Shown: positions 1-1,897 of the stretch, in pieces
Layout of the letters: each line of letters begins with the position of its first letter
How positions within the stretch are numbered: position 1 is the stretch's first letter
DNA from: a virus
Strand: one strand, 5' to 3'
Virus record (IMG/VR): IMGVR_UViG_3300030012_000272
Coordinates: 1 to 26,351 of that record
DNA: 26,351 nucleotides
The notes under the pieces: model-generated
Told to the model about the DNA's origin: nothing
The model's database searches: none
The model's input: only the letters and a program-made list of their open reading frames with translations
Program-made: the position numbers and the translations under genes

Positions 1-312
1 AGACTAATTTTTCAATATGCAAGCTTTAACAATTCTCGTGCTCTACACTTTTTTCTGGCTGTATGGCCAGTCGTGGGCATATGGTTCACCTCTATGGGGA
101 TAGCCACAATGGCTTTCAACCTTAATGGGTTTAACTTTAACCAGTCTATTACAGACGCTAACGGAAAGATCGTTCCTACATGGGCTGACGTATTAAACAG
201 AGCTAATCTTGGCTTTGAAGTTATGCACGAGCGTAACGCACACAACTTCCCACTTGATTTAGCATCAGCTGAGTCAACACAAGTGGCACTCACAGCACCA
301 TCATTAGGATAA
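1..312 (+). CDS. psbA: Photosystem II D1 protein, C-terminal part (5' end outside window)
   Basis: This is the last ~103 codons of D1, the reaction-centre subunit that binds the Mn4CaO5 cluster and cofactors of photosystem II in the thylakoid membrane. The frame is open from base 1. Diagnostic blocks are [15 protein letters not shown], the last transmembrane helix ([10 protein letters not shown]...[13 protein letters not shown]) and the lumenal tail [15 protein letters not shown]. That tail keeps every C-terminal manganese-cluster ligand of D1 (His332, Glu333, His337, Asp342 and the Ala344 carboxylate in standard numbering). A 15-residue extension ([15 protein letters not shown]) follows Ala344 and would be removed by the host CtpA protease. 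Phage psbA is known to replace host D1 during infection, and in cyanopodoviruses it lies just upstream of the capsid gene, as here. The fragment looks intact and functional. The TAA stop overlaps the next ATG (TAATG). Confidence 0.97.
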
Positions 313-413
313 TGGCACAACAGTCTACCTCTGGACTTGGTGTAGCACACCCAGTTCAGTATTCACCAATACAAGAAAAAGAAAAAAAGAAAGAAGATAA
401 AAAGAAAAAATAA
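312..413 (+). CDS. Small Lys/Glu-rich protein, 33 aa, coupled to psbA
   Basis: This ORF of 33 codons starts on the TAATG overlap with the psbA stop, so it would be translated by re-initiation after D1. The N-terminal half ([20 protein letters not shown]) is neutral. The C-terminal half is almost only Lys, Glu and Asp, ending in four lysines. I do not recognise a family. The first four residues (MAQQ) match those of the capsid protein starting at 695, and the first ten bases or so are nearly the same, so it could be a degenerate copy of the capsid gene's start left by insertion of the psbA/riboswitch segment. Its own TAA again overlaps an ATG (413), which opens only a 10-codon frame running into the riboswitch. 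Existence as a protein is uncertain; no function is assigned. Confidence 0.5.
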   Translation: MAQQSTSGLGVAHPVQYSPIQEKEKKKEDKKKK

Positions 414-418
414 TGCCA

Positions 419-470
419 CGTCCGTTCATCCTTCGGGACGCATGACAACCTAGCATGGAACGGGGCTAGG
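419..470 (+). promoter_or_regulatory. Glutamine-II (downstream-peptide) riboswitch
   Basis: The element folds as an H-type pseudoknot. CCGTTC (422-427) is complementary to GAACGG (458-463). The latter sits in the loop of a 6-bp hairpin formed by CCTAGC (449-454) and GCTAGG (465-470). Between these lies a small TCC/GGA hairpin (429-431 with 436-438) capped by a TTCG tetraloop. The order CGTTCATCC-TTCG-GGACG, then a hairpin whose loop pairs back to the start, is the architecture of the glnA/downstream-peptide RNAs. These bind L-glutamine and occur in marine picocyanobacteria and at least one cyanophage. As in that class, the next gene is a very short peptide ORF (487). A candidate Shine-Dalgarno (TGGAG, 476-480) lies directly 3' of the aptamer, so control of translation is plausible. 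I matched the family from memory, without a covariance search. An alternative pairing CGTCC (419-423) / GGACG (436-440) could be the unbound state. Confidence 0.82.
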
Positions 471-486
471 GTATATGGAGTTTACA

Positions 487-543
487 ATGACTGTAACTTA
501 CGTATATCGTGGCATTGAGTACACAAGAGTAGTTGGTAAATAG
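487..543 (+). CDS. Riboswitch-linked 18-aa peptide (YRG-type, DUF4278-like)
   Basis: This ORF encodes MTVTYVYRGIEYTRVVGK and ends at TAG. ATG 487 is preceded at normal spacing by TGGAG (476-480), immediately 3' of the pseudoknot. The Tyr-x-Tyr-Arg-Gly-x-x-Tyr core resembles the tiny cyanobacterial DUF4278-type proteins (pattern YRGxxY). It also fits the known habit of downstream-peptide riboswitches to precede similar peptides of about 17-100 residues. The function of these peptides is not established. By analogy with glutamine-controlled glutamine-synthetase inactivating factors in cyanobacteria, a role in nitrogen assimilation is possible, but this is inference. The last third of the ORF doubles as the 5' strand of the tRNA-like minihelix at 526-578. 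Confidence 0.7.
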   Translation: MTVTYVYRGIEYTRVVGK

Positions 544-578
544 GCCACACAGGGAGGTTCGAGTCCTCCCAACTCTCT
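526..578 (+). other. tRNA-like acceptor/T-arm minihelix
   Basis: GGGAGG (552-557) and CCTCCC (565-570) form a 6-bp stem around the 7-nt loop TTCGAGT, which fits the tRNA T-loop consensus TTCRANY exactly. Directly 3', with no gap as in tRNA, AACTCTCT (571-578) pairs with AGAG-t-AGTT (526-534, one bulged base), imitating an acceptor stem. The 17 nt between (535-551) are too short for D and anticodon arms, so this is not a complete tRNA. No CCA is encoded. The segment AGTTGGTAAA (531-540) also resembles a tRNA D-loop. It could be a decayed tRNA, a tmRNA-like fragment or an mRNA processing/stability signal. Pairing is visible in the sequence; function is unknown. Confidence 0.5.
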
Positions 579-694
579 TGGCGAGAGCCCTCTACGGAGG
601 ATACCTTGAGCCGTCTAGACGGTGGGATAGACCACAAAATCTCGAGAAAAAATTTGTACAAGAAATACTAACCTTTACTTTTTTATTTTGAACA
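575..694 (+). promoter_or_regulatory. Structured 5' leader of the capsid gene
   Basis: This gene-free stretch upstream of the capsid ATG contains several short foldable elements. CTCTC/GAGAG closes around TTGGC at 575-589. CCTC/GAGG closes around TACG in the next ~15 nt. A perfect 12-bp palindrome, CCGTCTAGACGG, lies at 611-622. The last ~50 nt before the ATG are A/T-rich, with runs of T and no convincing Shine-Dalgarno. CTCTC here overlaps the 3' strand of the tRNA-like minihelix, so the two folds exclude each other. No consensus -35/-10 pair is clear. RNase processing or mRNA stabilisation of the capsid message, as T7 uses RNase III sites, is a reasonable but unproven reading. Confidence 0.4.
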
Positions 695-1897
695 ATGGCA
701 CAACAAGCCACAACAGCTACAGCCAATGGTCCTATTTATGGTGGTGCCTCCAACGGTACACTAACAGGACTTGGTACAGCTGACCAAAGAAGAGCACTTT
801 ATTTAAAGCTGTTCAGTGGAGAGATGTTCAAAGGATTCCAGCACAATACTATAGCTAGAGACTTAGTGACAAGACGTACACTATCAAATGGCCGTAGTCT
901 ACAGTTCATCTACACAGGTAGAACTAAAGCTGAGTTCCATGTCCCCGGACAGAGCATCCTCGGTAATGATGAGAAGACACCTCCAGTAGCAGAGAAAACT
1001 ATTGAGTGCGATGATCTCTTAATCTCAAGTGCGTTCGTCTATGAATTAGATGAGACACTTGCACACTACGATTTACGTGGTGAAATTTCTCGTAAGATCG
1101 GTTACGCTCTTGCAGAAAACTATGATAGACGAATCTTCAGAGCTATCACAAAGGCTGCTAGACAGCCATCCCCAGTTACAATGAGTAACTTTGTTGAGCC
1201 CGGTGGTTCTGTAGTTAAAGTTGGTGCTGCCAACAGTACAGTAGCTGCTGACGCTTACAATGCTGGTCACTTAGTTAACGCTTTCTATGACGCTGCTGCT
1301 ATCCTTGACGAAAAAGGAGTAAGTGGTGACGGTAGAGTTGCTGTAATTAACCCAAGACAGTACTACGCACTTATACAAGACATCAATAACAACGGTCTAA
1401 TTAACCGTGATGTACAAGGTACAGCGTTACAGTCTGGTAATGGAATCATCGAAATCGCTGGTATCAGAATCTTCAAGTCAATGAACATTCCGTTCTTTGG
1501 TAAGTTTGGTACTAAGACAGACATGAATCCAAGAGCTTCTAACGATAACGAAGGTAGTTTCGTAGGTGAAGCAATGGGAGATCAGGATTCTAAGACAACA
1601 CCTTCAAACTCTAACACACAGAAGACAATCAACAACTATGGTACAGCAACTAAGTTTGCTAATAGCTGTGGATTAATCTTCCAGAAAGAGGCTTGCGGTG
1701 TAGTCGAAGCAATCGGCCCACAAGTACAGGTAACATCTGGAGACATTTCAGTTGTATACCAAGGTGACGTAATCTTAGGTCGCCTAGCAATGGGTGCAGA
1801 CTTCCTAAACCCTGCCGCTGCTGTTGAATTAGTAGCTGGAATTGACGTTTCTTCTAACTTCAATAACACTGCTGTTTCTAACGCATCATTCACTTAA
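695..1897 (+). CDS. Major capsid protein (T7 gp10-like)
   Basis: This 400-residue protein assembles the icosahedral head and has the HK97 fold known for T7 gp10. The N-terminus (MAQQATTATANGPIYG...) leads to the block LYLKLFSGEMFKGFQHNTIA and the stretch SLQFIYTGRTKAEFHVPGQ, both typical of cyanopodovirus and T7-group capsid proteins. Later come the E-loop-like and spine-helix region (residues ~100-150) and a C-terminal half ending in SGDISVVYQGDVILGRLAMG, a pattern near the end of this family. At 400 aa it is longer than T7 gp10A (345). ATG 695 is the only start that preserves the conserved N-terminus; it lacks an obvious Shine-Dalgarno. A terminator follows at 1915, and the structured leader and riboswitch lie upstream. 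I see no sign of a T7 gp10B-style frameshift extension. Confidence 0.95.
   Translation: MAQQATTATANGPIYGGASNGTLTGLGTADQRRALYLKLFSGEMFKGFQHNTIARDLVTRRTLSNGRSLQFIYTGRTKAEFHVPGQSILGNDEKTPPVAEKTIECDDLLISSAFVYELDETLAHYDLRGEISRKIGYALAENYDRRIFRAITKAARQPSPVTMSNFVEPGGSVVKVGAANSTVAADAYNAGHLVNAFYDAAAILDEKGVSGDGRVAVINPRQYYALIQDINNNGLINRDVQGTALQSGNGIIEIAGIRIFKSMNIPFFGKFGTKTDMNPRASNDNEGSFVGEAMGDQDSKTTPSNSNTQKTINNYGTATKFANSCGLIFQKEACGVVEAIGPQVQVTSGDISVVYQGDVILGRLAMGADFLNPAAAVELVAGIDVSSNFNNTAVSNASFT

Follow-up and report, generated by a model that had tools for sequence, protein, structure and literature searches.

A riboswitch aptamer of the Glutamine-II family, followed by an 18-codon open reading frame with a YRG motif, is located between the end of psbA and the major capsid protein gene of a phage genome fragment. 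The fragment, a virus record of 26,351 nucleotides that is referred to as the window, has the gene order of T7-like cyanopodovirus late genes: the psbA end, the capsid gene, and tail genes. The identity, structure, conservation, and position of the aptamer, the coding constraint on the peptide, and its kinship through the YRG motif to host proteins were established computationally. We propose, with a probability of approximately 0.72, that glutamine turns on the translation of the micropeptide, which would act late in infection as a single-repeat, DUF4278-like mimic or competitor of a host nitrogen regulator. The features of the junction are listed in Table 1.

Table 1 Features at the start of the window and the basis of their assignment.
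Feature	Position	Strand	Basis and components
psbA (photosystem II D1), 3' end	1–312	+	Open frame truncated by window start; position matches annotated psbA in P-SSP7 and relatives
33-aa lysine-rich ORF, ends KKKK	312–413	+	Sequence reading; ATG overlaps psbA stop
Glutamine-II (formerly Downstream-peptide) riboswitch aptamer	420–470	+	RF01704 covariance match, covariation, mapped ligand contacts
Shine-Dalgarno GGAG, context AUGGAG	477–480	+	Sequence reading; UGGAG enrichment at such micro-ORFs
YRG micro-ORF, 18 aa MTVTYVYRGIEYTRVVGK and stop	487–543	+	Coding constraint, conserved YRG
tRNA-like structure without anticodon arm	526–576	+	Acceptor 526–530/572–576, short D-like arm, T-arm 552–570
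Capsid-leader RNA	578–635	+	Hairpin (variable, AYACC bulge) inside a GGC/GCC stem; palindrome CCGUCUAGACGG; terminal hairpin, GANAGA loop
Major capsid protein gene	695–1897	+	Homology to the gp10/major head protein annotated in P-SSP7 and relatives

The aptamer and the YRG micro-ORF

The covariance model RF01704 matches the aptamer over its whole length (model positions 1–60) with a score of 44.6 bits and an E value of 5.4e-8 in a search of both strands of the window. The curated cut-off of the family is 33 bits, and the match therefore confirms the proposal of the first-pass annotation that the phage encodes a glutamine-class riboswitch ahead of a YRG micropeptide. Of the Downstream-peptide/glnA class that had been named, the assignment holds for the Downstream-peptide/Glutamine-II family and not for the glnA family. 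Apart from RF01704, no Rfam 15 family was found in positions 300–720 up to an E value of 5. The H-type pseudoknot is present; however, it is formed by nucleotides 423–427 and 458–462, so that the ends proposed earlier (422–427/458–463) were off by one base. Hairpin P1 (429–431/436–438) is capped by UUCG at 432–435, and P2 (449–454/465–470) is the expected CCUAGC/GCUAGG stem. The Shine-Dalgarno sequence and the 18-codon reading frame that had been described together with these elements are likewise present on direct reading.

Glutamine is contacted in the crystal structure 6QN3 by C1, G2, G18, C19, C39, and G40 (PMC6698751). The published sequence and numbering of that structure map these contacts to C423, G424, G440, C441, C461, and G462 of the window, all of which are present. 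By analogy with the published relatives, the phage aptamer would bind glutamine. A scan of viral contigs for the exact core of the aptamer yielded at least 120 stretches. Among 105 distinct phage aptamers, the variable pairs at positions 2–6 of P2 are paired in 92–100% of sequences, compared with 44–74% after shuffling; the compensatory changes that had been suggested as a check are thus abundant in related phages. P1 is paired in 98–100% of the same sequences, with a few compensatory changes. The aptamer is a member of the known Glutamine-II family, and its structure is real and under selection.

A YRG reading frame with an ATG start comes after at least 139 of the 164 phage aptamers, and most of the exceptions have GTG starts or lie at contig ends. 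The micro-ORFs occur in two sizes. The shorter form, which includes that of the window, encodes 13–22 residues of the MTVTYVYRGxxYTK type, and the longer form, of about 31–45 residues, has an N-terminal extension (MSxxELQARxKEQ...LKYRGVxYTK). For a set of 91 unique sequences, pN/pS in the frame of the peptide is 0.51 for the whole set and 0.35 for the window-like family; the other frames have values above 1.2. Synonymous changes alone are seen in the codons of the YRG motif and of the later Y; YRG had been required for inclusion in the set, the later Y had not. The invariant second Y together with the in-frame pN/pS of 0.35–0.51 places the YRGxxY motif under protein-level constraint, which bears out the expected conservation of the peptide. 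The micro-ORF is real and under coding constraint. No annotation of it was found in the records of P-SSP7, P-GSP1, P-SSP10, P-SSP2, NATL2A-133, NATL1A-7, and 9515-10a. In P-SSP10 (positions 2480–2700 of locus L004), 9515-10a, and NATL2A-133, a gp222-like gene follows the micro-ORF almost directly, and translational coupling of the two is possible.

In Prochlorococcus genomes, the same aptamer class precedes proteins that are mostly 55–65 residues long and contain three YRG/YRR repeats. The one host protein that was scanned, a 57-residue product encoded behind an aptamer, belongs to DUF4278 (PF14105; E 6e-11, 42.9 bits). A 35-residue phage form matches the YRG segment of DUF4278 with an E value of 3.6e-5 and 24.5 bits, just below the gathering score of 25.3, and a Pfam scan of the 18-residue window peptide gave no match. 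Phage forms of 32–35 residues match phrog_5049, a PHROG without known function, weakly. Within the host protein, the last repeat is the one to which the phage peptide aligns, and it too ends in YTK; one P-SSP7 row of the alignment, taken in a wrong frame, was disregarded. As judged from the sequences, the phage peptide resembles one repeat of the three-repeat host protein, and membership in PF14105 is not claimed. Three strand pairs, one for each repeat, are seen in a predicted structure of the host DUF4278 protein; the confidence of the prediction is low (pLDDT 67), and the repeats can be described as hairpins only tentatively. A sequence search of the PDB found no relative.

Position ahead of the capsid gene

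At the capsid junction, 15 named podovirus records were searched with RF01704, and 12 of them score above the cut-off. The records were chosen by their similarity to the region or to the capsid leader and are not a random sample. The positive records include P-SSP7, P-SSP2, P-GSP1, P-SSP10, 9515-10a, NATL1A-7, NATL2A-133, S-RIP1, S-RIP2, and KBS-P-1A; RF01704 was not found within the searched stretch of S-B28, S-SBP1, and WH11-B. The riboswitch is also present in 29 of 31 metagenomic loci that were fetched by capsid similarity only and have at least 1 kb of upstream DNA, some of them near-duplicates. It is near-universal in this phage group. When loci were fetched by the aptamer pattern only, a capsid homologue was located at most 1.7 kb downstream of the aptamer in 83 of 84, among the matches listed. 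By contrast, psbA was found within 1.5 kb upstream in 48 of 76 listed matches with at least 1.5 kb of upstream DNA, and it was absent from the other 28. Because the capsid gene is the far more constant companion, the switch belongs to the capsid junction, and psbA is a frequent but dispensable neighbor. The link between psbA and the riboswitch that had been drawn from the window is therefore not general. Among the listed loci of the aptamer scan with sufficient downstream DNA, L123 is the only one with no nearby capsid homologue, and it encodes a different YRG peptide, MCKTKLVYRGVVYYKATH.

No phage relatives of the 33-residue reading frame that precedes the aptamer were found by tblastn. Its product begins with MAQQS, similar to the start of the capsid protein, MAQQA. 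The capsid start codon is preceded by an AT-rich stretch only, with no obvious Shine-Dalgarno sequence, although very high expression of the gene is presumably needed.

The phage riboswitch shares its sequence core, pseudoknot, P1 and P2, ligand-contact bases, and a directly downstream YRG reading frame with RF01704 of Prochlorococcus and marine Synechococcus. Unlike the host versions, it belongs to a lytic phage, where it lies ahead of the capsid gene, and its reading frame encodes one YRG repeat (13–45 residues), whereas in most of the fetched host loci the frame encodes 55–65 residues and three repeats. Yfr6 of Prochlorococcus, which consists of a Downstream-peptide 5' untranslated region and a 33-residue peptide, similarly combines a riboswitch-class leader with a very short conserved peptide. 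However, Yfr6 is a stand-alone transcript of the host chromosome, and its antisense RNA Yfr14 rises early in phage infection (PMC2518516). Glutamine-class riboswitches borne by phages have been described before: a glnA-type switch in the T4-like cyanophage S-CREM1 and, in the methylophage Melnitz, a glnA-like switch at the tmRNA (PMC9964418, PMC9004378). These differ from the podovirus switch in that they belong to the glnA family and occur in larger myoviruses and in other gene contexts. DUF4278 proteins, which include the N-terminal part of the glutamine synthetase (GS) inactivating factor IF17, have the YRG motif and control by glutamine riboswitches in common with the phage peptides; by contrast, the phage peptides are single-repeat and score below the Pfam cut-off. 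A search of the literature for RF01704 in podoviruses or for this junction found no description, although an earlier mention is possible, and the podovirus RF01704 may already be listed without comment, because the Rfam model itself detects it. The aptamer class is already known; the phage cassette, its fixed setting ahead of the capsid gene, the single-repeat micropeptide, and the adjoining RNAs appear to be new.

Proposed glutamine-dependent translation of the micropeptide

Type-2 glutamine riboswitches of Prochlorococcus are reported to activate DUF4278 genes in response to glutamine (PMC6316151). In this riboswitch class, glutamine stabilizes the pseudoknot, probably at the expense of an alternative fold in which the ribosome-binding site is hidden (PMC6698751). 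By analogy with these relatives, glutamine would activate the phage switch as well. The sequence UUCAU at 425–429, on the 5' strand of the pseudoknot, is complementary to AUGGA of the Shine-Dalgarno region and is a candidate anti-Shine-Dalgarno sequence, the pairing being predicted from complementarity. UGGAG is present at 56 of 77 micro-ORF sites and at 37 of 111 other reading frames from the same loci (p 1.4e-7, with relatedness ignored), and this enrichment fits sequestration of the site by the pseudoknot strand. Nested folding gave a mean unpaired value for the ribosome-binding site of 0.33 in the free state and 0.30 in the bound-like state, with no clear difference between them; support for the switching step therefore comes from published work and from the UGGAG enrichment.

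In the mechanism that we propose, the riboswitch, carried by the late mRNA ahead of the capsid gene, would control the translation of the 18-residue YRG micropeptide. When glutamine is scarce, UUCAU would be free to pair with AUGGA of the ribosome-binding site, and translation would be lowered. When glutamine is plentiful, the pseudoknot would be locked, leaving the ribosome-binding site free, and the peptide would be made. The product resembles a minimal single-repeat version of the host DUF4278 proteins, which are themselves under the control of the same riboswitch class in Prochlorococcus. The phage would most likely produce this small mimic or competitor in step with host glutamine, late in infection. 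We infer the action of the peptide on host nitrogen metabolism and its timing, and a target in nitrogen metabolism is likely. The aptamer class suggests that the phage probably reads the nitrogen state of the host during infection, as the first-pass annotation had supposed. During phage infection of MED4, antisense RNAs of the host that are directed against Yfr6 and against a gene resembling its peptide rise early (PMC2518516).

The viral steering of photosynthesis and of the flow of carbon and nitrogen in the ocean is studied in the laboratory with T7-like cyanophages, P-SSP7 among them, as models; the hosts of these viruses are the most common photosynthetic bacteria of the sea. If the proposed mechanism is true, the near-universal glutamine-class switch ahead of the capsid gene would be a nitrogen sensor for these phages. 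The micropeptide is an unannotated candidate effector that is small enough for synthesis and direct testing, and it may serve as a minimal probe for YRG/DUF4278 function and for the targets of the host counterparts.

RNAs adjoining the capsid gene and possible alternative outputs of the switch

The tRNA-like structure and the leader RNA that precede the capsid gene are separate from the riboswitch, and they overlap or touch the micro-ORF in compact layouts such as that of the window. Both are candidates in their own right for shaping the capsid mRNA. The tRNA-like structure, which appears to be an RNA not reported before, has the canonical T-loop UUCGAGU and a fold z of −2.5. Its acceptor covaries, with a mean of 4.42 base pairs compared with 2.41 in shuffled sequences (maximum 3.38 in 500 shuffles). 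ARAGORN and Rfam searches for a tRNA in positions 526–576 found none, and the structure is not a complete cloverleaf. Structures of this kind, likewise without the anticodon arm and with the micro-ORF stop codon inside, are located at about 2669–2715 of locus L002 and about 2250–2293 of L184.

Three kinds of module occupy the site just upstream of the leader. In other phages, a complete tRNA-Gly(UCC) is found there, ending within one base of the leader, and in some phages it is degenerate. The tRNA-Gly(UCC) of NATL1A-7-type phages has its acceptor and T-arm in the same place as the window structure; by contrast, the window structure has no anticodon arm and is not recognized as a tRNA. The third module is a conserved G+C-rich hairpin with the loop CACCUCAGAGUCGGA (L126–L130, L134–L135, and other loci). 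The riboswitch lies upstream at a median distance of about 630 nucleotides in hairpin-type phages and about 780 nucleotides in tRNA-type phages. In this sorting of layouts, several window-like loci were placed under "other", since the pattern matched an earlier TTGG.

The micro-ORF stop codon (541–543) lies inside the tRNA-like structure, as it does in all 45 parsed loci, several of which are close relatives. The stop codon is often part of the acceptor strand, and several different acceptor sequences occur. This arrangement argues for a reading in which the switch acts on RNA processing and not mainly through the peptide. At high glutamine, ribosomes on the micro-ORF would end translation within the tRNA-like structure and melt it, whereas at low glutamine it would fold and be cut by the tRNA-processing enzymes RNase P or RNase Z, detaching the upstream mRNA and freeing a capsid mRNA headed by a protective leader. 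The stop codon is positioned between the acceptor strand and the T-arm in 45 of 45 loci despite the different acceptor sequences, the acceptor covaries, the leader begins directly at the end of the structure, and the complete tRNA-Gly(UCC) found at this place in other phages requires excision to be functional. Nevertheless, the reading is unlikely. The coupling cannot be general, because the switch is hundreds of bases away in the hairpin-type and tRNA-type phages; a pure timing device would not need the protein-level constraint on the peptide; and the overlap of stop codon and structure is explicable as simple compaction. The cutting of the structure is an assumption of this reading.

The capsid leader is a covarying, previously undescribed RNA that is absent from Rfam; the search of 578–635 against Rfam 15 for matches up to an E value of 5 found none. 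In alignment A1 of 54 sequences, the N–N' pair is kept in 96%, compared with 54% after shuffling, and the variable positions of the inner hairpin are paired in 100%, compared with 44–77% after shuffling. The enclosing stem and the terminal hairpin with the GANAGA loop also covary. The capsid gene is located within 500 nucleotides in 96 of 97 loci retrieved by the 3' half of the leader.

The presence of this leader bears on the possibility that the riboswitch governs the capsid gene through polarity, as suggested in the first-pass annotation, or through attenuation. The closeness of the capsid gene in 83 of 84 listed matches would suit such control, which is nonetheless very improbable: no terminator-like site was found between the switch and the capsid gene, a conserved leader RNA belongs to the capsid gene itself, several genes lie between the two in many relatives, at distances of as much as about 1.5 kb, and the capsid is required in every infection. 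The polarity claim is thus not supported. It is just as doubtful that the micropeptide acts as a leader and nothing more, with its translation setting that of the following gene through coupling, as might be imagined for the gp222-like gene in P-SSP10-type phages. The next ATG in P-SSP10 is about 6 nucleotides past the micro-ORF stop, in an open frame that includes the annotated gp222-like gene; however, the window and P-SSP7 have no gene between the micro-ORF and the capsid leader, and conservation of the peptide sequence extends over both layouts. That the cassette is a neutral remnant of host DNA retained by chance, as the same aptamer class before YRG genes in host Prochlorococcus genomes might suggest, is scarcely credible, being contradicted by the strong covariation, the purifying selection on the peptide, and the 29 positive loci out of 31 fetched by capsid similarity.

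A role of the leader as a recurrent phage promoter was considered and dropped, as it occurs as a single copy in the window even at three mismatches and once per locus. Nucleotides 611–622 of the leader form a perfect palindrome, CCGTCTAGACGG, which could fold into a hairpin, mediate a dimer contact, or serve as a site in the DNA. The sequence stays palindromic when its center changes to CATG or is shortened to TCGA.
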